The notes beneath the pieces are model-generated. The model did not search any database. It worked only from the letters and a program-made list of their open reading frames with translations, and was not told the DNA's origin. A stretch of 31,772 nt of DNA from a virus. The stretch spans positions 1-31,772 of IMG/VR virus record IMGVR_UViG_3300036770_007199; one strand, written 5' to 3'. Below are positions 3,296-24,910 of the stretch, piece after piece (positions within the stretch are counted from its first letter, which is position 1; every line of letters starts with the position of its first letter). The translations under genes were made by a program, and so were the position numbers.

Positions 3296-4312
3296 ATGGC
3301 CAACCTATTCCGGCGAGCGATCGCATTCACTGACATACATTTCGGTTTAAAAAGCAACAGTGTGTTGCACAATCAAGACTGCGAACAGTTTGTTGATTGG
3401 TTCATCGCCACTGCTCAGGAACAAGGCTGCGAAACTGGATTTTTTCTCGGTGACTGGAGCCATCATCGAGCGTCTATCAACATGCAGACCCTGCAATACA
3501 GTCTCCGGGCCTTGGAAAAGCTCAGTGCAGCGTTTGATAGATTTTATTTCATCCCCGGTAATCACGATCTCTACTATCGAGATCGGCGTGATATCTACAG
3601 CACAGAGTGGGCCCGGCACATTCCCAACATACACATCTGCAACGACTGGTTTGAAGAGGGTGATGTGATCATTGCTCCATGGTTGGTGGGTGACGATCAC
3701 AAGCGCATCGCCAACATGAGTGCAAAGTATATGTTTGGACATTTTGAACTACCGCATTTCAAGATGAATGCCATGGTGGAAATGCCGGACCACGGCGAGA
3801 TCAGTGCCAAACACTTTGGCGGCTTTGATCGTGTGTTCTCTGGGCATTTCCATCTCCGGCAGGAGAAACACAATGTGACCTATATCGGCAACGCCTTCCC
3901 ACACAATTTTGCCGACGCCGGCGATGATCAGCGCGGTTGCATGATCCTGGAATGGGGCAGTGATCCCAGGTATCTGGCCTGGCCTGGGCAACCTCTCTAC
4001 AATGTATGGAATCTCAGCCATGTCATGGACCATGCCCAAGAAATCTTGCGTCCCAACATGCATGTGAGAGTGCAACTAGATATTGAAATCAGCTACGAAG
4101 AAGCCAATCTCATCCGAGACACCTATGTCACTCAGTATGGTCTCAGAGAGATGGCCTTGATACCCAACAAACGTTCGGCATTGGCGGAAGATCTTTCGCC
4201 CGGCGAAGTGCGATTTGAAAGTGTGGATCAGATTGTCACAGACCAAATCACGCGAATTGAGTCGGAATTTTACGACCCAAAACTTCTACTGCAGATCTAT
4301 CAGACTCTATGA
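3296..4312 (+). CDS. 47: Recombination endonuclease subunit gp47 (SbcD/Mre11-like)
   Basis: Metallophosphoesterase nuclease subunit that pairs with gp46 in the Mre11/Rad50-type complex; it processes DNA ends for recombination-dependent replication and host DNA breakdown. The calcineurin-type motifs are present in order: D13-x-H15 (TDIHFG), GD at 52-53 (LGDWSHHR), GNHD at 88-91, then a GHFELPH segment and a C-terminal SGHFHLRQE that supplies the last metal-binding histidines. Its 338 residues match T4 gp47 (339). It starts 14 bases after gp55 and its stop overlaps the next gene by 4 bases (ATGA). In T4 the gp47 and gp46 genes are close neighbours; here three unrelated AT-rich genes lie between them. 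Confidence 0.93.
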   Translation: MANLFRRAIAFTDIHFGLKSNSVLHNQDCEQFVDWFIATAQEQGCETGFFLGDWSHHRASINMQTLQYSLRALEKLSAAFDRFYFIPGNHDLYYRDRRDIYSTEWARHIPNIHICNDWFEEGDVIIAPWLVGDDHKRIANMSAKYMFGHFELPHFKMNAMVEMPDHGEISAKHFGGFDRVFSGHFHLRQEKHNVTYIGNAFPHNFADAGDDQRGCMILEWGSDPRYLAWPGQPLYNVWNLSHVMDHAQEILRPNMHVRVQLDIEISYEEANLIRDTYVTQYGLREMALIPNKRSALAEDLSPGEVRFESVDQIVTDQITRIESEFYDPKLLLQIYQTL

Positions 4313-4917
4313 CAAAAAAAGTTTTAATAACCGGAGATAGCTTTGCTGCTGACTGGTCAGTGAAATATCATGATTATCCCGGATGGCCTAATCTGTTGTC
4401 TCGGAAATACACTGTTACTAATCTTGCCCAGGCAGGATGTAGCGAATATAAAATCTGGCAACAGATAGAATCAGCAGATCTATCATTGTATGATGCGGTG
4501 ATAGTTTCCCACACTAGTCCTTATAGATTGCCGGTAGAAAATCATCCTGTACACAAGGATGATGCCTTGCATAAAGATTGCGATCTTATCTATACTGACA
4601 TCAAAGAATCCGGAAAAAAAGATCTACACAGCATTGTTGAGTTTTTTGAAAAGTATTTTCATACAGATTATGCTAAGTTTGTACATCAATTGATCATATC
4701 TCACGAATTAAATTATATCAGCCAACATTGCAAAGGACCAATTTTAACAATATCTAACCTAGATTGCAGTCACTTGGTATCAAGGAACGAATTCTTAGAT
4801 TTTTCAAAACTATTTCGTGAACAAAGAGGAATCGTAAATCATTTTAGCGAACAAGCAAATCAAAAGATTTGTACTACCATAGAACAATGGCTAACAACAA
4901 ATCTACCGTCAACATAA
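4309..4917 (+). CDS. SGNH/GDSL-hydrolase-like protein (first of two)
   Basis: 202 residues. The N-terminus, VLITGDSFAADW, is the block I of SGNH hydrolases with a likely nucleophile S11 (GDSFA, residues 9-13). A C-terminal VNHFSEQAN (about residues 176-184) could supply the catalytic histidine. SGNH proteins hydrolyse esters, for example by removing acetyl groups from glycans; which substrate applies here is unknown. The ATG overlaps the gp47 stop (ATGA), so it is coupled to the core operon. The sequence is visibly richer in A and T, and in Lys, Ile and Asn codons, than gp47. That fits a recently acquired cassette. No signal peptide or membrane segment is visible. Confidence 0.55.
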   Translation: MTKKVLITGDSFAADWSVKYHDYPGWPNLLSRKYTVTNLAQAGCSEYKIWQQIESADLSLYDAVIVSHTSPYRLPVENHPVHKDDALHKDCDLIYTDIKESGKKDLHSIVEFFEKYFHTDYAKFVHQLIISHELNYISQHCKGPILTISNLDCSHLVSRNEFLDFSKLFREQRGIVNHFSEQANQKICTTIEQWLTTNLPST

Positions 4918-5702
4918 TACTAGGAGGAGCCAGTATTACCAATAGTCCATGGCCTACATGGGCAGATGCAGTCAGATATCGATACGTAGCAAAACATATC
5001 GATACCAGTAAAAAGGGCCTGGGCAATGAAGCCATACTGTTACGCATGCTGGATGCAGCCGCACAGGTACACTACCCAGATGCCACCACTTTTCTACTAC
5101 CCATGCTGACCAACATAGACAAATGGGACTGGTACGTGGACCAAAAAGATCGTATCAAAAAATACGACAAAGAAAAACATTCGTTAGCCAGGATAGCAAA
5201 CACTCAAGGGGGATTTTGGTCTACCGGATCATGGTTTCCATTGGAAAAAGAAATCTACAAAGAAAATTTTTATAGCCAAGACTATTTTACGCTAAGAAGT
5301 TTGCAAATGTTGGCTATGTTCAAACAAATTTGCCACAGACAGGGATGGAAATATTTGATTTTGTTCGACTCTCCTATCTGGAGTATGACCGAGGCTGAAG
5401 TCAATCAGGGCAAGGAAATTTTACATAATCATCAATTAATCAACACGCCGTTGTGTCAATGGTTTTACCAATGCTCAGGTGCTGCTGATAATGTGTACGA
5501 ACCCGGCATGCTGGGATTCTTATATGAAAACAAACTGCCTTGGTTCAGTGAAAAATGGAAATGTCATCCGGGTCCTTTATCGCAACTGGCGTTTGCTCGG
5601 CAGCACGTGATACCTATATTAGATTTAGAATTACCCCACAACGGCGATGACCATGGACTCGACTATACAATATCTCGTATGGACAAATTATGGACCCTTT
5701 AA
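4887..5702 (+). CDS. SGNH-hydrolase-like protein (second of two)
   Basis: 271 residues from the ATG at 4887; a TTG six codons upstream is possible but adds nothing recognisable. The start lies 31 bases inside the upstream gene in another frame. Residues 10-22 (IILGGASITNSPW) carry an SGNH block I variant with S16. GLGNEA (about residues 46-51) looks like the Gly/Asn block, and KCHPGPLSQLAFA near the C-terminus gives a conserved-looking His. This arrangement is typical of SGNH-like proteins I associate with marine phages. It differs from the preceding gene in length and block structure, so the pair is not a simple tandem duplication. A glycan- or lipid-ester substrate is inferred. It overlaps the next gene by 13 bases. 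Confidence 0.5.
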   Translation: MANNKSTVNIILGGASITNSPWPTWADAVRYRYVAKHIDTSKKGLGNEAILLRMLDAAAQVHYPDATTFLLPMLTNIDKWDWYVDQKDRIKKYDKEKHSLARIANTQGGFWSTGSWFPLEKEIYKENFYSQDYFTLRSLQMLAMFKQICHRQGWKYLILFDSPIWSMTEAEVNQGKEILHNHQLINTPLCQWFYQCSGAADNVYEPGMLGFLYENKLPWFSEKWKCHPGPLSQLAFARQHVIPILDLELPHNGDDHGLDYTISRMDKLWTL

Positions 5703-6835
5703 CACTAAGCAAACGTACCGGCATATGGCCTTCTCTGTGCCAAGATCTACATGATCGATATCGTATCATCTACGCTGCGAATCTACTCGAATATGATTAT
5801 GATATGTCACGATTATGGCAAGAACTATTGCCTTACCGTGACATAAATTTCTCTGAGAACGATCGGATGATTTTCACGTTGTATGACACCGAATACTATG
5901 TTGATGATATGAAGCTGGGGTTTACTTCTGAAAACTTAATCAGGATATTACAAGATCTTAATATTTCATTTGGTTATTGTTTGTTGTTTACCAACCACCA
6001 CGGAATCAATGTCGCATGGTCAAAAAAATGTGGCCGATTTTCCGTTAAGGTTTATGAAAATAATTTTTCTTATATATGTACGCCGTCAACCCCAAAAATA
6101 TTGGAAAGAAATGCGTATCAGATAAAAAAAACTTTCTGTTTTATGAGTAACGTGCGCCGAGATCACCGTTCCTATGTGAGAATATGGATCGAAGATCAAA
6201 ACATAAAAAATCGTGCGATTATATCATGGAATTCTGATTGGAAAAGATTAAACCACTATCAACCCAAAGAAGAATCGTCGAATACCTGCACCTGCGAGTT
6301 TATCTATCCAAAACCTTTTACCCGAATAAAAGACAAAATTTCAGTCAGCGATCACTTGATAAAGTTGTTCAATCAAAATACTGCCATCCTTGATATCGAT
6401 TATCGTGACAGCTCTATAACATCTGGGCCAAACGAAAATAATTTTGAAGCACCGTGGTTAGCGGAAACTTTTTTAAATATCGTAACCGAGACTGTCTTTC
6501 ATTATCCTTATCCGTATTTAAGCGAAAAAACTTTTAAATGCTTTTGGCATCGTAGTCCATTTATTATAGTCGGTGCAGCCAATAGCCTCAAGTACCTAAA
6601 ATCCATTGGATTCAAAACATTTGATCAATGGTTTAATGAAAGCTATGACGACATCATCGATCCCATCAAAAGATTGGACAATATACTGCAAACGTTGAAT
6701 TTGATATCAAAATGGTCGTTATCGCAATGTCAAGATGTTTATAATAGTATGGAAACTGTATTAAGTTACAATTTGCAACACTATCAGACCCACTTCTGTC
6801 AAAAAATGCTTGCCGAGACTAAACAGAATATTTGA
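5690..6835 (+). CDS. Glycosyltransferase-like protein
   Basis: 381 residues. The C-terminal third is the informative part: residues about 258-330 read FLNIVTETVFHY, then YLSEKTFKCFWHRSPFIIVG, then SLKYLKSIGFKTF and DPIKRLDNI. This 'TET ... SEKTFK ... PFIIVG ... LKxxGFKTF' pattern recurs in phage and bacterial glycosyltransferase-like proteins related to exostosin/fucosyltransferase folds, where the E/K region contacts the nucleotide sugar. The N-terminal 250 residues are rich in Tyr, Asn and Ile and I do not recognise them. The gene overlaps the upstream SGNH-like gene by 13 bases and ends 7 bases before gp46. It is AT-rich like its two partners. A role in modifying a sugar on the virion or host surface is inference. 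Confidence 0.4.
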   Translation: MDPLTLSKRTGIWPSLCQDLHDRYRIIYAANLLEYDYDMSRLWQELLPYRDINFSENDRMIFTLYDTEYYVDDMKLGFTSENLIRILQDLNISFGYCLLFTNHHGINVAWSKKCGRFSVKVYENNFSYICTPSTPKILERNAYQIKKTFCFMSNVRRDHRSYVRIWIEDQNIKNRAIISWNSDWKRLNHYQPKEESSNTCTCEFIYPKPFTRIKDKISVSDHLIKLFNQNTAILDIDYRDSSITSGPNENNFEAPWLAETFLNIVTETVFHYPYPYLSEKTFKCFWHRSPFIIVGAANSLKYLKSIGFKTFDQWFNESYDDIIDPIKRLDNILQTLNLISKWSLSQCQDVYNSMETVLSYNLQHYQTHFCQKMLAETKQNI

Positions 6836-6842
6836 TCAAAAA

Positions 6843-8606
6843 ATGATAACTATCAAGACATTGACTGTAAAAAATTTCATGAGCGTGGGCAACGCTGCTC
6901 AAGCCATTGATTTTGATCGTCAAGATCTCACTCTGGTCCTGGGCGAGAATCTCGATCTTGGCAGTGACGGCAGCCGTAACGGCACCGGCAAGACCACCAT
7001 CATCAATGCTCTCAGCTATGCTCTCTACGGGCAGGCTCTCACCAACATCCGTCGCGACAATCTTGTGAACAAGACCAACGGCCGGCAGATGCTGGTGAGC
7101 CTAGACTTCGCCATCAATGGTGCTGAATACCGTATCGAACGCGGTCGCAAACCCAATGTGTTGAAATTTTATATCAACAGCGAAGAACAACAGGCCACCG
7201 ATGACAGCCAAGGCGACAGCCGAGAAACACAGCAGGCCGTGGAACAGATCCTGGGCATGACACACGACATGTTCCGGCATATCTTGGCTCTCAATACCTA
7301 CACCGAACCATTCCTGAGTCTCAAGGCCAACGATCAACGCGTGATCATCGAGCAGTTGTTGGGCATAACTCTCTTGAGCGAGCGGGCCGAGAAGATCAAA
7401 GAATTAAACAAAGCCACCAAGGATGCCATCAGTCAAGAAGAAATGCGCATCCGGGCTGTGCAAGAAGCCAATGCCAGGATCGAAGAGCAGATCGTCAGTC
7501 TAGAAAAACGCCGAGATCTCTGGCTCCGAAAACAAGCCGAAGATGTTCAGGGATTCAAAGACGCTGTATCGGCCTTGGAACACATCGACATCGACGCGGA
7601 AGTACAGGCACATCGCGACCTCGATGCCTATCATCTACGCCGAAAACAGATCGATGAACATCACAGATGCCTGCGGCAAATCGACCAAGACAACATCAAA
7701 CTAGAAAAAGATCAAGGCAAACTCCAACGTGACATCGAAGCTCTTCAGCAACATCGCTGTCATGCTTGTGGCCAAGATCTGCATGATGCCAAGCAAGACG
7801 AAATACTGGCAGAGAAGCAGAAAAATCTACAAGAGATTGCCGTACAATTGTCAGACAACAAAACACAACGCGCCGAGCACGCGAACGAAATTGAAGACCT
7901 CGGCGAACTAGGCACAGCACCTGTGGTGTTCTATGACAATCTCGAACAGGCGCTCAATCACCGAAACAGCCTAGATGCGTTGCGTCGAGATGTAACTGCA
8001 AGATCAAGCGAGACCGATCCCTATACCGAGCAGATTGCGGACATGCGGAACCAAGCCCTGCAAGAGGTCACCTACAACATGGTCAACGAGCTGACTCGTG
8101 TGTTTGAACATCAAGATTTCCTGCTCAAGCTCTTGACCAACAAAGATTCATTTGTGCGCAAGAAGATCATCGAACAGAATCTCTCATATCTCAATCAACG
8201 CCTTACCCACTATCTTGACTGTATTGGGTTACCACATCAAGTGGTGTTCCAGAACGACCTGTCGGTTGAAATCACCGAGCTGGGGCGCGATCTTGATTTT
8301 GACAATCTTTCACGCGGCGAACGCAACAGACTGATCTTGAGCATGAGCTGGGCGTTCCGTGATGTGTGGGAAAGCCTGTACCATCCAATCAACGTGTTGT
8401 TCATTGACGAACTGGTGGATTCAGGCATGGATACCGCGGGCATGGAAGCCAGCCTGGCGCTCTTGAAAAAGATGAGTCGCGAACGCCGCAAGTCAGTATG
8501 GTTGGTAAGTCACCGAGATGAGCTTGCTGGGCGTGTGGAAAACATTTTAAAAGTTGTTAAAGAAAACGGGTTTACAAATTACAACAACGATATTGACATT
8601 GTATGA
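6843..8606 (+). CDS. 46: Recombination endonuclease subunit gp46 (SbcC/Rad50-like)
   Basis: SMC-like ATPase partner of gp47. The start is the ATG at 6843 (MITIKTLTVKNFMSVG), the canonical N-terminus; an upstream ATG in the same frame would add 11 unlikely residues. Features in order: Walker A GSRNGTGKTT (43-52); coiled coil rich in Glu, Gln and Arg; the zinc-hook CHAC (C306-x-x-C309), which dimerises two molecules; a second coiled coil; the ABC signature LSRGERNRL (about 489-497); Walker B NVLFIDELVDSGMD (about 517-530); and a D-loop/H-loop SHRDEL. The 587 residues compare with 560 in T4. Base composition becomes AT-rich over the last 20 or so codons, merging into the downstream cassette. Confidence 0.95.
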   Translation: MITIKTLTVKNFMSVGNAAQAIDFDRQDLTLVLGENLDLGSDGSRNGTGKTTIINALSYALYGQALTNIRRDNLVNKTNGRQMLVSLDFAINGAEYRIERGRKPNVLKFYINSEEQQATDDSQGDSRETQQAVEQILGMTHDMFRHILALNTYTEPFLSLKANDQRVIIEQLLGITLLSERAEKIKELNKATKDAISQEEMRIRAVQEANARIEEQIVSLEKRRDLWLRKQAEDVQGFKDAVSALEHIDIDAEVQAHRDLDAYHLRRKQIDEHHRCLRQIDQDNIKLEKDQGKLQRDIEALQQHRCHACGQDLHDAKQDEILAEKQKNLQEIAVQLSDNKTQRAEHANEIEDLGELGTAPVVFYDNLEQALNHRNSLDALRRDVTARSSETDPYTEQIADMRNQALQEVTYNMVNELTRVFEHQDFLLKLLTNKDSFVRKKIIEQNLSYLNQRLTHYLDCIGLPHQVVFQNDLSVEITELGRDLDFDNLSRGERNRLILSMSWAFRDVWESLYHPINVLFIDELVDSGMDTAGMEASLALLKKMSRERRKSVWLVSHRDELAGRVENILKVVKENGFTNYNNDIDIV

Positions 8607-9172
8607 AATTAACAGTTATAGCTCGAGGTGAGTTTTCAGTTGAGTGGCCAATTTTAGAAGTTGTTGTTAACAACATTGTAGTTGGCCGCCACACTGTCAA
8701 AGACATTTCTGAAGCTGACTTTGATATATCTCTTGAACATGATGTTAATAATGTTTGTATTAACTACGTCAACAAACAACAGCACCACACACAAATCAAT
8801 AAAAACACAGTTGTTGCTGACCAAAGTTTGGAATTAATAGGTTTACGACTTGATGATATAAAATTACAGTCGTGGATCACCACACAAGGTCATTACAAGC
8901 CTAGATATTTTGAGGGTTTTTTACAACAAAATCCCAATGCCCAAACTCTATTGCAAAGCCAATTGATTTGGCATTTTCCTGGCAGCTTTGTGTTACCTCC
9001 CTGGCCACACAAGGACAGATTTTGGGAATGGTATCGCCAGCAAAGACGGTTTGTTCATGCTTCACAATTCACAGGTGCGGCTGCTATTCGTGACGAAGGG
9101 TATATTGGTAGTTTAGACAAACACCAAGACCTTGTGCTTGATATTAAGAAAATTTTAAAAATAGATGTATAA
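8603..9172 (+). CDS. Unknown protein opening the radical SAM cassette
   Basis: 189 residues, not recognised with confidence. The first 100 residues alternate hydrophobic and polar positions (LTVIARGEF, LEVVVNNIVVG, VNNVCINYVN, LELIGLRLDDIKL), as expected for a beta-sandwich like a small carbohydrate-binding module. The second half is aromatic (GHYKPRYFEGF, LIWHFPGSFVLPPWPHKDRFWEWY). The ATG overlaps the gp46 stop (ATGA), and the 3' end overlaps the next gene by 8 bases. It is strongly AT-rich. Position suggests that it is either a substrate or a binding partner of the enzymes that follow. Carbohydrate binding is a guess from strand pattern and aromatic content only. Confidence 0.6.
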   Translation: MKLTVIARGEFSVEWPILEVVVNNIVVGRHTVKDISEADFDISLEHDVNNVCINYVNKQQHHTQINKNTVVADQSLELIGLRLDDIKLQSWITTQGHYKPRYFEGFLQQNPNAQTLLQSQLIWHFPGSFVLPPWPHKDRFWEWYRQQRRFVHASQFTGAAAIRDEGYIGSLDKHQDLVLDIKKILKIDV

Positions 9173-10688
9173 AAATGTTGCGTTTATAACCTGTCCTAGC
9201 ATGGAATTAGAACGTCCACCTGCTGCCGCGGCAGCATTGGCAGGTGTATTTGCAGCCAACAATTGCGAGTATACCATATACGACTTGAATCTTGATTTAT
9301 ACAATAGCCTAGCAAATGAAGACTGGGCTGTGTGCGATCGCAAATGGCGTGTTGATCAAGGAATTTTATTGCCTGCAAGTTTTGATTTGTGGTTTAAGGA
9401 TACTGTTAGTAAAATTATCAACAATGATCATGACATGATTGCCGTGAGTGTGTTTAGTAAATTTAGTACTAGATTTGCACTTATGTTGTTACAAGAATTA
9501 CGATCAAAAATCAGTGCGACATTTATGGTAGGCGGCCAAGGACTATCCAGTCCTTGGGGCGACACTACATTTGGAAAACTATTAGTGGAATATAAGTTAG
9601 TTGATCACATTGCCGTTGGTGACGGTGAAGTTATACTTGATCGATTTCTCAAAGGTGAAAGAAACATTCCCGGCCTTGATGGAATACCGCCAGAACAAGT
9701 GTCAAATCTTGATGAAATTCCGTATCCCAAGTATGATCAAATTGAGCCAACCATGTATCATTACCACCAACATCCGGGTGTGTATGTTACTGCCAGTCGT
9801 GGTTGTGTTCGGAAATGCAAATTTTGTGATGTTCCGCATCGCTGGCCCAAATACAAATATCGTCGAGGCACAGACATTGCCAAAGAAATATATCAACACT
9901 ATAAAGATACAGGTGCAACACTAGTTCAGTTTACTGATTCTGTAATAAATGGTAACGTATCTGAATTTGAAAAATTACAATTAGCACTGATTGATTATAA
10001 AAAAACTGACGCAAACTTTAAACCTAAGTGGATTAGTCAGTTTAACATTCGTAAAAAACGAGACATGCCAGAACGCATCTATTCAGCCATGGCTGATGCC
10101 GGAGCGAGCGTTTTGGTATGCGGAGTTGAACATGCTAGCTGGAGTATTCGAGAAAGCATGGGTAAAGAGTTTGACAATGAAGATTTAGATTATCACATTC
10201 GCATGTGTGCCAAATACGGTATCAGTAATATATTTTTAATGTTTATAGGATATCCAACCGAAACACTAGACGACCATAATGAAATGTTGTTGTTCTTAGA
10301 AAAATATCAAAAGTACATGTTTGCTGGAACTATTATGACTGTACGGTGGGGGTATACTGGTAGCCTAGATCACGGTAGCAAGCTAGAACTAATGCAAGAT
10401 CAATTAGAAATTATACCTGAGTGGCCAGATCTAAAGGTAATGACCGTTGATGACCAAACGCAAGACTGGTTGTATGGTAGAAATTGGGTTAATTTAAACA
10501 ATCCAACGCTGACTTTTAAAGAACGCATGCGCAGACGCCTTGAAGTTCACGAGCGCAGTATTGATCTAGGCTATCCTGTAACGCGAGCACGTGAAGAACT
10601 TGAAATTTTAAAAATCATGTGCGAAGCTTTTTATGCTGATAAACCAGCGCAGGTATTTGAAATCAAAGATATAGGCGATCACCATTGA
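9165..10688 (+). CDS. Cobalamin-binding-type radical SAM enzyme
   Basis: 507 residues. Residues 1-150 form a Rossmann-like N-terminal domain of the B12-binding radical SAM kind: VAFITCPSMELERPPAAAAALAG, YTIYDLN, and MVGGQGLSS before a GDGE turn. No DxHxxG motif is visible, so cobalamin, if bound, would be without the usual histidine ligand. The radical SAM cluster motif C214-xxx-C218-xx-C221 lies in SRGCVRKCKFCD and binds the 4Fe-4S cluster. The barrel continues through SQFNIR and GVEHASWSIRESMGK. Such enzymes often methylate or rearrange unactivated carbons. The substrate is unknown. It overlaps both neighbours, so the four genes form a translationally coupled unit. It is AT-rich compared with the phage core genes. 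Confidence 0.75.
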   Translation: MYKNVAFITCPSMELERPPAAAAALAGVFAANNCEYTIYDLNLDLYNSLANEDWAVCDRKWRVDQGILLPASFDLWFKDTVSKIINNDHDMIAVSVFSKFSTRFALMLLQELRSKISATFMVGGQGLSSPWGDTTFGKLLVEYKLVDHIAVGDGEVILDRFLKGERNIPGLDGIPPEQVSNLDEIPYPKYDQIEPTMYHYHQHPGVYVTASRGCVRKCKFCDVPHRWPKYKYRRGTDIAKEIYQHYKDTGATLVQFTDSVINGNVSEFEKLQLALIDYKKTDANFKPKWISQFNIRKKRDMPERIYSAMADAGASVLVCGVEHASWSIRESMGKEFDNEDLDYHIRMCAKYGISNIFLMFIGYPTETLDDHNEMLLFLEKYQKYMFAGTIMTVRWGYTGSLDHGSKLELMQDQLEIIPEWPDLKVMTVDDQTQDWLYGRNWVNLNNPTLTFKERMRRRLEVHERSIDLGYPVTRAREELEILKIMCEAFYADKPAQVFEIKDIGDHH

Positions 10689-11197
10689 ATGTGTTAATTA
10701 CTGGTTCCGACGAACTTGCTATTGCTTTGCAAAAAGTTTTTAGCGATCATAATGTTGTATTGGTTTCAAGAAAATCTGGACATGATATCAACTGTGTTGA
10801 CCAGTGGGGCGGTGTTTTTACCAATCATGACATGGCAATTAATTGTGCATATTCAGATCACGGACAACTAAAAGTGTTAGACTACTTTTTTAATTGTTGG
10901 AAAAATGATCCAGCTAAAAAAATTATTACCATTGGCAGCCGAGTAATATCACATCGTCCAGTAGCAACTTCATTTGACTACTGGCCTTACAAATTGCACA
11001 AGCAACAGTTACAATTAGCGCACGATGCTATGTTATCCGAAGCAGTATGTGATATGAAAATTATTAATCCTGGTCCAATTGATACCAAAATGGTCAGGCA
11101 TCATGCCGTGCCAAAGTTTTCAACTGAAGAGTTTGCAACAAAAGTAAAAGAGATTGCAAACGATCGTTCACTAAAGAGAGTAGATTTATGGGTATAA
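10685..11197 (+). CDS. Short-chain dehydrogenase/reductase-like protein
   Basis: 170 residues, short for an SDR (usually about 250). Residues 1-8 (MNVLITGS) give the first strand and a degenerate TGxxxGxG turn; the glycines are poorly kept. NCAY at 53-56, TIGSR with S85, and Y102-xxx-K106 (YKLHK) match the Asn-Ser-Tyr-Lys tetrad order, and NPGPIDTKM at 128-136 matches the post-catalytic PG loop. It therefore looks catalytically competent but trimmed in the helices. The start is uncertain: TTG at 10685 (4-base overlap with the upstream stop) or GTG at 10691. It overlaps the next gene by 10 bases. It probably reduces or oxidises a keto/hydroxyl group made by the flanking radical SAM enzymes; that role is inferred. 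Confidence 0.65.
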   Translation: MNVLITGSDELAIALQKVFSDHNVVLVSRKSGHDINCVDQWGGVFTNHDMAINCAYSDHGQLKVLDYFFNCWKNDPAKKIITIGSRVISHRPVATSFDYWPYKLHKQQLQLAHDAMLSEAVCDMKIINPGPIDTKMVRHHAVPKFSTEEFATKVKEIANDRSLKRVDLWV

Positions 11198-12291
11198 ATT
11201 GGCAGTTTTATCATTGGCACCTAGAGCCCAGTGCTGTGTGTGCATTACAATGCCCTAGATGTCCAAGGACTGAACATCCAACAACATCATGGTTAAACTA
11301 TACCATGGATTTGGATTTTGTTAAAAGTTTTTTAACCCCAGAACGATTGGTCAACGATGTTCGTCGTATCACCATGTGCGGCGATGTTGGTGATCCAATC
11401 TACTGTCGTGACTACATCGAAATATATCAATACATTAAACAAGTAAACCCAAAGATTCACATATTCACTATCACAAACGGTAGCAACAGAAATACTGCTT
11501 GGTGGGAACAACTTGCCAGCGTTGCTAACGAATACGACAGTATTAATTTTAGTGTTGATGGATATGATAACGCTAGTAACAATTTATATCGTATTGGTAG
11601 TAATTGGGATTCGATTGTCAATGGCATGCAAACCTTGCGCAACAACAATCATAAAATTTTTATGAATTGGGCCATGATTATTTTTAAATTTAACCAGGAT
11701 CATATCAACAATATAACTGAATTTGCTCGAAAGCTAGAGTTTGATCAACTGCAATTAACAAAAAGCACAAAATTTGGTAGCAAATATGGAGAGGCATATC
11801 AAGGGGAAACTGACCCACTAGAACCACGTGCAGAGTGGATATCAGCTAGTGATAGATACGAACGTCAAACTATTACACTAAGTCAACGGCAACAACCAAA
11901 CACAGAATATTTAGAACACAATAAAAAAATGTTTCAGTTGGTCAAATCCAAGTATATTGACAAGCCTGTTGTGCCATTGTGTGAGATTGGCAACCGTGGC
12001 ATCTATGTAAATGCAGAAGGCGTGGTGTTTCCGTGTTCATGGACTAGTTTTCCCTATCACTCGCTGTCTAACGGAGACAAAACTATTCAATGGAAGGACA
12101 GCTTTTTTGCAAAGTATCGAAATCAAATGAACTTGCGTTCACGAACACTAGAAGAAATTGTGACAGATCCTCTTTGGAATATGTGTAGTCAGGGCTGGAG
12201 TGATGCTAGCAAAACCTGGGTAGAGTGTGCTCAAAAATGTTCAACACAATTGGTTGACGAAAACTATGCTGTGGGCTGGGAAACAAACTAA
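11188..12291 (+). CDS. Radical SAM enzyme with SPASM-like C-terminal cysteines
   Basis: 367 residues. LEPSAVCALQCPRCPR places the cluster motif at C18-xxx-C22-xx-C25. The barrel follows with ITMCGDVGDPIYC (the GGEP-like strand), FTITNGS and INFSVDG. The C-terminal domain has C265 (CEIGNRGIYVNAEG), C283 (FPCSW), C333, C347 and C351 (VECAQKC), a set typical of SPASM or twitch domains that hold auxiliary Fe-S clusters. Family members modify peptides (RiPP maturases, sulfatase-maturing enzymes) or small molecules. No short precursor-peptide gene is visible beside it. It ends 8 bases before the PD-(D/E)XK gene, where composition returns to the phage average. Confidence 0.75.
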   Translation: MGINWQFYHWHLEPSAVCALQCPRCPRTEHPTTSWLNYTMDLDFVKSFLTPERLVNDVRRITMCGDVGDPIYCRDYIEIYQYIKQVNPKIHIFTITNGSNRNTAWWEQLASVANEYDSINFSVDGYDNASNNLYRIGSNWDSIVNGMQTLRNNNHKIFMNWAMIIFKFNQDHINNITEFARKLEFDQLQLTKSTKFGSKYGEAYQGETDPLEPRAEWISASDRYERQTITLSQRQQPNTEYLEHNKKMFQLVKSKYIDKPVVPLCEIGNRGIYVNAEGVVFPCSWTSFPYHSLSNGDKTIQWKDSFFAKYRNQMNLRSRTLEEIVTDPLWNMCSQGWSDASKTWVECAQKCSTQLVDENYAVGWETN

Positions 12292-24104: not shown

Positions 24105-24135
24105 GTTGACATAATGTTTATTTTGTGCTAACTTA

Positions 24136-24143
24136 CATAAATA
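24136..24143 (+). promoter_or_regulatory. Late promoter octamer CATAAATA before the HNH gene
   Basis: The octamer ends 5 bases before the ATG at 24149, with no Shine-Dalgarno between. A TTGACA at 24106-24111 lies 25 bases upstream, but its 17-base-spaced -10 box (TAACTT) is poor. Expression is most likely late and from a nearly leaderless message. Confidence 0.6.
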
Positions 24144-24148
24144 ACATT

Positions 24149-24910
24149 ATGAACAAATACACTCGTTGGTATAATCAAATCATTGAATGTGCTCGTTTTC
24201 GCATCATCGATACCTATACCGAAACACATCACATCCAGCCACGCAGTCTTGGTGGCACGGATGACGCCCATAATCTTGTTGAACTTACTGCTCGTGAACA
24301 CTTCATATGCCACTGGCTCTTGGTCAAAATGACCACCGGCGAAGATCATTACAAGATGCTTAACGCCTTGCGAATGATGCGAGCAGAAAAACACGGGCAA
24401 CACCGATATGAAACTGCAATAACGAGCCGTGTTTATGAAAGCATCAAACAAGAATACTCGCGACTACAAAGCAAACGCATACGGGGTGAAAACAATCCAA
24501 TGTGGGGCAAAACACACACTGAAGAAGCACGCCAAGCGATCAGAGAAAAGAACACAGGCAAGAAACTCACAGAAGAACAGATAGCACGACAAGTGGCTGC
24601 ACAAACAGGACGTAAGCGTGCCCCGTTTGGTGAAGAGTGGCGTGCCAAGATGTCAGAAAGCAAACGCGGAGAGAAGAACAATCGCTACGGTGTAGAAGTT
24701 TCTGACGAAACACGGCGCAAGATCGGAGATCGGATCCGTGGCCGTAAACAGAGCGAAGAAGAAAAGCAACGCCGTGGTGAAGCTAATCGAGGTAAGATCA
24801 AACCCAAGATACTCTGCCCCCACTGTGACCAGATGATAGCGGTCAACACCTACCCCCGCTGGCACGGTGACCGCTGTGCTCAAGCACCGGATACACAGCA
24901 TCAGGGATAA
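24149..24910 (+). CDS. Free-standing HNH homing endonuclease with NUMOD-type repeats
   Basis: 253 residues. MNKYTRWYNQIIECARF is the typical N-terminus of T4-like mobile HNH endonucleases; an in-frame ATG 8 codons upstream would read through the promoter. The HNH site is ETHHIQPRSLGG, then NLVELTAREHFICHWLL (H27, H28, N42, H51/H55). Two DNA-binding repeats of the NUMOD3 kind follow: GENNPMWGKTHTEEARQAI (about 120-138) and GEKNNRYGVEVSDETRRKI (about 180-198), both with basic helices. The C-terminus is a zinc-ribbon-like CPHC ... H ... C (about 222-245). It nicks or cuts cognate alleles lacking the gene, so it spreads by gap repair. It sits between gp23 and the next virion gene with its own promoter. 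Confidence 0.85.
   Translation: MNKYTRWYNQIIECARFRIIDTYTETHHIQPRSLGGTDDAHNLVELTAREHFICHWLLVKMTTGEDHYKMLNALRMMRAEKHGQHRYETAITSRVYESIKQEYSRLQSKRIRGENNPMWGKTHTEEARQAIREKNTGKKLTEEQIARQVAAQTGRKRAPFGEEWRAKMSESKRGEKNNRYGVEVSDETRRKIGDRIRGRKQSEEEKQRRGEANRGKIKPKILCPHCDQMIAVNTYPRWHGDRCAQAPDTQHQG

Follow-up and report, generated by a model that had tools for sequence, protein, structure and literature searches.

Paired radical SAM enzyme genes beside gp46 of an environmental phage, candidates for carbohydrate tailoring

Genes for radical S-adenosylmethionine (SAM) enzymes are abundant in environmental phages, and their substrates are largely obscure. What might such enzymes do in a phage, and do neighbouring ones act together? 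Herein, we address these questions for an uncultured giant phage, represented by a 31.8-kb viral sequence from IMG/VR (IMGVR_UViG_3300036770_007199, positions 1 to 31,772; hereafter the window), in which four intact open reading frames (ORFs) lie directly 3' of gp46. They encode a companion protein with the fold of a carbohydrate-binding module (CBM), a B12-type radical SAM enzyme, a minimal short-chain dehydrogenase/reductase (SDR) and a twitch-type radical SAM enzyme. A first-pass annotation, made from the DNA letters, had described it as a four-gene cassette inserted in a T4-like replication operon and had suggested a defined multi-step modification pathway. We made a different conclusion: the cassette is two separable pairs, CBM-like companion with B12-type enzyme (module 1) and SDR with twitch enzyme (module 2), and a carbohydrate is their possible substrate.

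Pairing, order and inheritance of the four genes

The cassette genes overlap gp46 and one another (gp46/companion, 4 bases; companion/B12-type enzyme, 8; B12-type enzyme/SDR, 4; SDR/twitch enzyme, 10). Their GC content is 0.365-0.392, and their GC content at third codon positions (GC3) is 0.29-0.35 versus 0.53-0.63 for the core genes of the flanks and the structural region (gp55, gp47, gp46, resolvase-like, portal and major capsid). In this respect the first-pass description of four overlapping AT-rich genes was accurate. The same trend was found in relatives but was weaker: the GC3 of gp46 exceeded that of the twitch gene in 22 of 27 loci and that of the B12-type gene in 24 of 28. Purifying selection acts on each of the four genes, with median ratios of nonsynonymous to synonymous substitution (dN/dS) of 0.08, 0.05, 0.12 and 0.05 in gene order.

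At 51-73% identity, the twitch protein has 36 near relatives among viruses, and 104 were found by profile. The B12-type protein of the window, used alone as a query, retrieved no viral relatives; these were found with an alignment (A1). The B12-type profile matched at least 555 viral stretches in IMG/VR, the best 80 loci of which were kept, and the module statistics describe this nearest part of the family. A scan seeded with the companion returned only loci already known, and a wider companion alignment lacked a conserved stretch. The ORFs of 110 non-redundant loci were labelled with profiles.

Within each module the pairing was constant or nearly so. The CBM-like partner adjoined the B12-type gene in 66 of the 69 distinct loci found with the B12-type profile, the remaining three starting at a contig edge. 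The SDR gene lay immediately upstream of the twitch gene in 62 of 62 high-scoring loci (55 by hidden Markov model profile, 7 by BLAST to labelled SDRs). Between the modules the arrangement was looser. A twitch-family gene was present within 6 kb in 44 of the 69 B12-type loci, together with an SDR gene in 34. The window has the order CBM-B12-SDR-twitch, L001-L005 and L008 have SDR-twitch-CBM-B12, L089, L092 and L096 have B12-CBM-CBM-B12-twitch-SDR, and in L090 and L099 the pairs stand on opposite strands.

The protein distances also separated the modules. Twitch distances tracked those of gp46 (Spearman 0.52, permutation p 0.001, n=27), whereas B12-type distances were uncorrelated with those of gp46 (Spearman -0.04, p 0.62, n=28) and of the twitch protein (Spearman 0.06, p 0.23, n=23). 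The variable pair order and the uncorrelated distances rule out one inherited four-gene unit. Given these correlations, the SDR-twitch pair looks like a resident of the lineage. The CBM-B12 pair has the appearance of a mobile module, one that frequently inserts next to the SDR-twitch pair. The set is real and recurs in many environmental phages, and the first-pass annotation was right that it has no matching phage core function. Its four-gene unit holds at the level of intact pairs but not as a whole, and a single defined pathway is at most putative. Independent scattering of the genes, which it had named as evidence against itself, was seen by half: the pairs stay intact, and the modules part and repeatedly meet again.

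The core genes agree with a T4-like label, but the closest isolates by gp46 (45-49% identity) are jumbo phages of 287-490 kb, namely Sinorhizobium phage Phosso, Pseudomonas phage PA5oct (Arenbergviridae) and Agrobacterium phage Atu_ph07. PA5oct has the gene order of the window (structural genes, late sigma factor, gp47, gp46, resolvase, baseplate hub, structural protein), its gp47 and gp46 overlap by one base, and cassette-type enzyme genes are absent after its gp46. The first-pass annotation described the cassette but missed a second AT-rich island between gp47 and gp46 (4309-6835, GC3 0.29-0.44). This island holds one SGNH-like gene with a weak Pfam match, another that is probably SGNH-like, and a glycosyltransferase (GT)-like gene. 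Because PA5oct runs gp47-gp46-resolvase without inserts, both islands are insertions relative to it. The GT-like protein has relatives in 28 loci and a conserved C-terminus (SEKT...GF.TF...YDD). Elsewhere in the window, a homing endonuclease gene (phrog_655, E 4e-52) lies at 24125-24910, directly 3' of the major capsid gene.

Among the INPHARED isolates, the B12-type, CBM-like and SDR proteins of the window had no match, and the twitch enzyme had distant matches only, in Campylobacter phages CP220 and F379 and Pelagibacter phage Mosig. The Mosig relative lies in a long run of genes (54488-70952, L183) that includes annotated aminotransferase, dioxygenase, MoaA-like radical SAM, carbamoyltransferase and nitroreductase genes, making Mosig a possible culturable model. 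A bacterial origin of the twitch enzyme was rejected, as one scan of 84,980 bacterial and archaeal species genomes yielded a lone C-terminal fragment, with which a 5.1-kb contig of a metagenome-assembled genome terminates.

Folds and conserved residues of the four proteins

The companion was modelled with AlphaFold2 (AF2) from 41 homologues, with a predicted local distance difference test score (pLDDT) of 91.4. In this model, the first 134 residues adopt the CBM60 fold. The best Foldseek match was vCBM60 (2xfd, E 5.9e-6, template modelling score 0.80 on the target), and VIA gave Z scores of 11.5 and 11.4 for two vCBM60 entries versus 5.2 for the next, with 111 residues aligned at a root-mean-square deviation of 2.7. 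AF2, Foldseek and VIA therefore agree with the first-pass proposal that this gene might encode a CBM fold. The sequence match to vCBM60 is weak (hhalign E 0.02; Pfam CBM60 E 6e-4, 20.6 bits, gathering cut-off 28.2), so the homology rests on the fold. K58 and D73 are the sole invariant residues across 41 long homologues. In three MAFFT modes and in hhalign, Lys58 (41/41) aligns with the Asp of the vCBM60 TND motif, which we take to be a calcium ligand. Since this Asp is absent, we call the companion CBM60-like and not CBM60; the alignment leaves the match of Asp73 to the second CBM60 calcium ligand ambiguous. The companion shares the beta-sandwich of vCBM60 (2xfd, 2xhh) over residues 1-134/144 but differs from it in the Asp-to-Lys replacement, a long insertion, a C-terminal helical tail, a score below the Pfam gathering cut-off and its partnership with a radical SAM enzyme.

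The helical tail is kept in copies beside B12-type genes and is missing in several copies beside other enzymes. Tailless copies adjoin pyridoxal phosphate (PLP)-enzyme-like genes in the full genomes L045, L075 and L200, a GT-like gene (weak Anp1 and GT21 matches) in L201 and L204, and, in L202, a further radical SAM gene that matched a SPASM-type cluster. The PLP-enzyme-like genes encode about 350 amino acids (aa) and alternate with CBM60-like companions (L045:2890-5415, L075:9550-12084, L200:2698-3837), as if each had its own. At L201:4178-5516 and L204:3668-5091, the CBM60-like gene and a DxD GT-like protein have a cytidylyltransferase-like gene nearby.

The B12-type enzyme matched Pfam Radical_SAM (E 8e-14), and C214, C218 and C221 are invariant in 56 aligned sequences. 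Its AF2 model (pLDDT 90.3) was ranked by VIA closest to AprD4 (6fd2, with paromamine; Z 26.9), followed by OxsB (24.4), TsrM (23.9) and MgmA (23.4). The fold aligned over residues 1-470 with OxsB and TsrM, and likewise with AprD4. For the putative N-terminal B12-binding-type domain, the Pfam B12-binding score was 15.9 bits, below the cut-off of 32.1, and none of the curated NCBIfam subfamily cut-offs was reached. The enzyme resembles the class B radical SAM methyltransferases TsrM, OxsB, CysS and MgmA in apparent domain order, fold and CX3CX2C motif, but it misses all curated subfamily cut-offs and its use of cobalamin is putative. PhpK and GenK/GenD1 are analogues in chemistry.

The second radical SAM enzyme matched Pfam Radical_SAM (E 1.4e-10); the best NCBIfam model was N_Twi_rSAM (E 1.8e-9, below cut-off). 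C18, C22 and C25 are present in 62 of 62 homologues. The first-pass annotation had listed five C-terminal Cys and called the enzyme SPASM-like. Four of them (C265, C283, C347 and C351) are kept in 62 of 62 homologues and C333 is not conserved, which rules out a two-cluster SPASM domain with its seven-Cys pattern. A twitch domain is a truncated SPASM domain with one auxiliary cluster (PMC9012708), and the conservation pattern leads us to expect a twitch-type enzyme with one fully Cys-ligated auxiliary cluster. BtrN, the twitch radical SAM dehydrogenase of butirosin, oxidises an aminocyclitol alcohol and has a four-Cys auxiliary cluster (PMC9012708). The phage enzyme is alike in its radical SAM core and single four-Cys cluster, and differs in being phage-encoded with a constant upstream SDR; no sequence match between the two was detected in the PDB search.

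The SDR has zero Pfam matches, its profile found nothing in the PDB sequence search, and its NCBIfam match to NF006118 (E 2.7e-5, 23.8 bits) is far below the cut-off of 279. T6G7, N53, S85, Y102, K106 and P129G130 are invariant in 18 aligned sequences. The Cys and Y102/K106 motifs named in the first-pass annotation are conserved apart from C333. Divergent phages have in place of this SDR a longer one that carries a TGTSSGIG-type motif, and the full TGxxxGxG occurs only in longer homologues. In another lineage (L034:7355-10501, L035:1071-4347), the SDR-twitch pair occurs with two GT-like genes, and a gene resembling an Fe-S A-type carrier adjoins the twitch gene; both were recognised by eye, without family match. 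Amidinotransferase-like genes near cassettes (L060:2549-3682, L185:8878-9921) were likewise recognised by eye only, with zero Pfam and NCBIfam matches.

Table 1. Cassette genes, domains and motifs, in positions of the window
Feature	Position	Strand	Basis
CBM60-fold companion, 189 aa (module 1, gene 1)	8603..9172	+	AF2 model, Foldseek, VIA, Pfam
Predicted CBM60-fold beta-sandwich domain, residues 1-134	8603..9004	+	structure model and alignments; holds Lys58
Companion C-terminal helical tail, residues 137-185	9011..9157	+	model; less confident at residues 151-180
B12-type radical SAM enzyme, 507 aa (module 1, gene 2)	9165..10688	+	Pfam, AF2, VIA
CX3CX2C (C214, C218, C221), radical SAM cluster	9804..9827	+	invariant, 56 sequences
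Minimal SDR-type oxidoreductase, 170 aa, TTG start (module 2, gene 1)	10685..11197	+	motifs
YxxxK catalytic motif (Y102, K106)	10988..11002	+	SDR alignment
Twitch-type radical SAM enzyme, 367 aa (module 2, gene 2)	11188..12291	+	Pfam, viral relatives
CX3CX2C (C18, C22, C25), radical SAM cluster	11239..11262	+	62/62 homologues
Predicted twitch auxiliary-cluster region, C265-x17-C283 ... C347-x3-C351	11980..12240	+	four Cys, 62/62

Carbohydrate tailoring and its alternatives

Given these folds and pairings, we put forward, tentatively and with a little less than even confidence, that the two recombining modules chemically modify a carbohydrate which is produced or attached in the course of infection. 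Candidate targets would be a virion glycan, a host-surface glycan or a sugar on another phage product. We infer such a substrate from the recurrent pairing of companion with B12-type enzyme and of SDR with twitch enzyme, the CBM60 fold of the partner, the aminosugar substrate and reductase partner of AprD4 as the best solved match of the B12-type enzyme, the single four-Cys auxiliary cluster shared with BtrN, the extra CBM60-like copies that adjoin a GT-like gene in two genomes, PLP-enzyme-like genes and a further radical SAM gene, and the GalE-type epimerases of relatives. Genes of PF01370 (NAD-dependent epimerase/dehydratase) occur in 10 of 10 large cassette-bearing relatives, one of them passing the GalE equivalog cut-off; Phosso and Atu_ph07 have none and PA5oct has one weak match. 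We also count for this reading the SGNH-like and other glycan-type genes of neighbouring islands.

In module 1, the cytoplasmic CBM60-fold companion would bind or present the sugar to its radical SAM partner, which would carry out demanding chemistry at a C-H or C-OH position. If cobalamin is used, this would be C-methylation; if the enzyme is AprD4-like, it would be dehydration/deoxygenation. In module 2, the twitch enzyme would form a ketone from an unactivated C-OH, much as BtrN oxidises its aminocyclitol, with the electron passing to its single four-Cys auxiliary cluster. The SDR might reduce this ketone, a net epimerisation, or a product of module 1. Of this scheme, the analysis establishes the gene pairing, the folds of both module 1 proteins, the conserved motifs and the mobility of module 1; the carbohydrate substrate, the types of reaction and joint action of the modules are proposals.

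Several results weigh against carbohydrate tailoring. AprD4 is ahead of OxsB by only 2.5 Z, Foldseek puts TsrM first and AprD4 fifth, and the match to the AprD4 model NF033070 reaches 22.7 bits where 500 are required. A common fold is no proof of a common ligand, and calcium-dependent sugar binding by the companion is probably lost, altered or replaced, because an invariant Lys stands in place of the TND Asp. In addition, 23 of the 76 partner proteins have at most 149 aa and are unaligned over the K58/D73 region. The cassette itself contains no glycosyltransferase, and jumbo phages carry epimerases and glycosyltransferases for other reasons. Finally, the modules are inherited independently and so need not share one pathway.

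The last point leads to an alternative in which the pairs are independent accessory (auxiliary metabolic) genes that make or alter a small molecule or lipid and share no pathway. The uncorrelated distances of the two modules are as it predicts, an AMP-binding ligase and PhyH-like oxygenases are found among the passenger genes, and an NCBIfam model of a lipid B12-type radical SAM enzyme matched at E 6e-18, below cut-off. We nonetheless consider it unlikely: the four families co-locate repeatedly, in varying order and even on opposite strands, which argues for a functional linkage.

The main specific rival is DNA hypermodification, in which the enzymes would further modify a phage base, for example on a 7-deazaguanine scaffold, as protection from restriction. 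It would fit the place of the cassette among recombination genes, beside gp46 or, in other phages, near a UvsX-like gene, although a location next to gp46 could simply reflect a site prone to insertions, given the SGNH and GT-like genes found there as well. In full-length relatives there are genes for QueE-like, QueD and GTP cyclohydrolase I proteins (QueE-like, phrog_2076, tested in L184 and L185; the other two in L184), interleaved with GalE and B12-type enzymes of about 620 aa, and one genome has an SDR resembling the cassette subfamily. The carbohydrate-binding fold of the partner speaks against this rival, which we judge improbable. A route to hydroxymethylcytosine- or hydroxymethyluracil-type DNA is not apparent, as only 1 of the 10 large relatives has a member of the thymidylate-synthase/hydroxymethylase family, and a classical TGT/DpdA enzyme is rejected, as PF01702 was unmatched in 13 genomes. 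A 514-521-aa protein of L184 and L185, suspected by eye to be TGT/DpdA, matched nothing in Pfam, PHROGs or NCBIfam (L184 copy) and is not claimed. The island of L184, L185 and L188 interleaves the Que-type genes with GalE, a GT4-like gene, SGNH-like genes and B12-type enzymes of about 610-670 aa, which suggests 7-deazaguanine chemistry and sugar genes in one locus.

Modification of a virion protein, or of the companion itself as substrate in the manner of ribosomally synthesised and post-translationally modified peptides (RiPPs), is improbable to the same degree: many SPASM/twitch and B12-type enzymes act on peptides, rSAM_ocin_1 (a RiPP C-methyltransferase model) matched at E 1e-14, below cut-off, the protein Gln methylase MgmA is among the structural matches and there is one companion gene per enzyme, but the companion is a well-folded 189-aa beta-sandwich and not a leader peptide, its variable C-terminal tail has no invariant core peptide, and related companions pair with PLP-enzyme-like and GT-like genes, which is unsuited to a substrate of radical SAM enzymes only. 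In a screen that left out very short ORFs, this folded CBM60-like protein was the sole constant partner of the radical SAM enzyme.

Known counterparts and significance

A comparison with described systems separates what is known from what is new. AprD4 deoxygenates the aminosugar paromamine at C3' in apramycin formation together with the NADPH-dependent reductase AprD3 (PMC5461906). The phage set is alike in the B12-type fold and in having a reductase, but it adds the CBM60-fold companion, and its SDR pairs with the twitch enzyme and not with the B12-type enzyme. Phages with radical SAM cassettes that vary between relatives have been described, such as the T4-like marine phage TARA_ERS488813_N000010 with 12 radical SAM genes (PMC5332604) and pelagimyophages with such cassettes in a host-recognition cluster (PMC7029224); the parts of these two papers available to us do not describe a CBM-like companion, an SDR pairing or a suggested substrate. 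A further likeness to these cassettes is the A-type-carrier-like gene beside the twitch gene in L034 and L035. In the literature covered, with subscription journals mostly outside it, we found no description of a CBM60-like companion or SDR-twitch pairing and no described pathway for the two-pair arrangement. Accessory tailoring genes of phages are thus known; the CBM60-like companion and the SDR-twitch pair appear to be new.

Through its constant CBM60-like companion, one widespread viral subgroup of radical SAM enzymes becomes approachable, with the substrate question turned into a binding and activity assay. A broader form of the carbohydrate proposal, which we hold to be rather unlikely, is that intracellular CBM60-like companions recruit radical SAM, PLP and GT-like enzymes to one phage glycan and that these enzymes are swapped modularly. 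If so, sugar decoration of the virion, host surface or DNA could diversify fast and evade recognition. If the substrate is a glycan, these phages would be using antibiotic-type sugar chemistry to vary a surface or DNA decoration, and the ways in which radical SAM enzymes are recruited would come to include a non-catalytic carbohydrate-binding partner.

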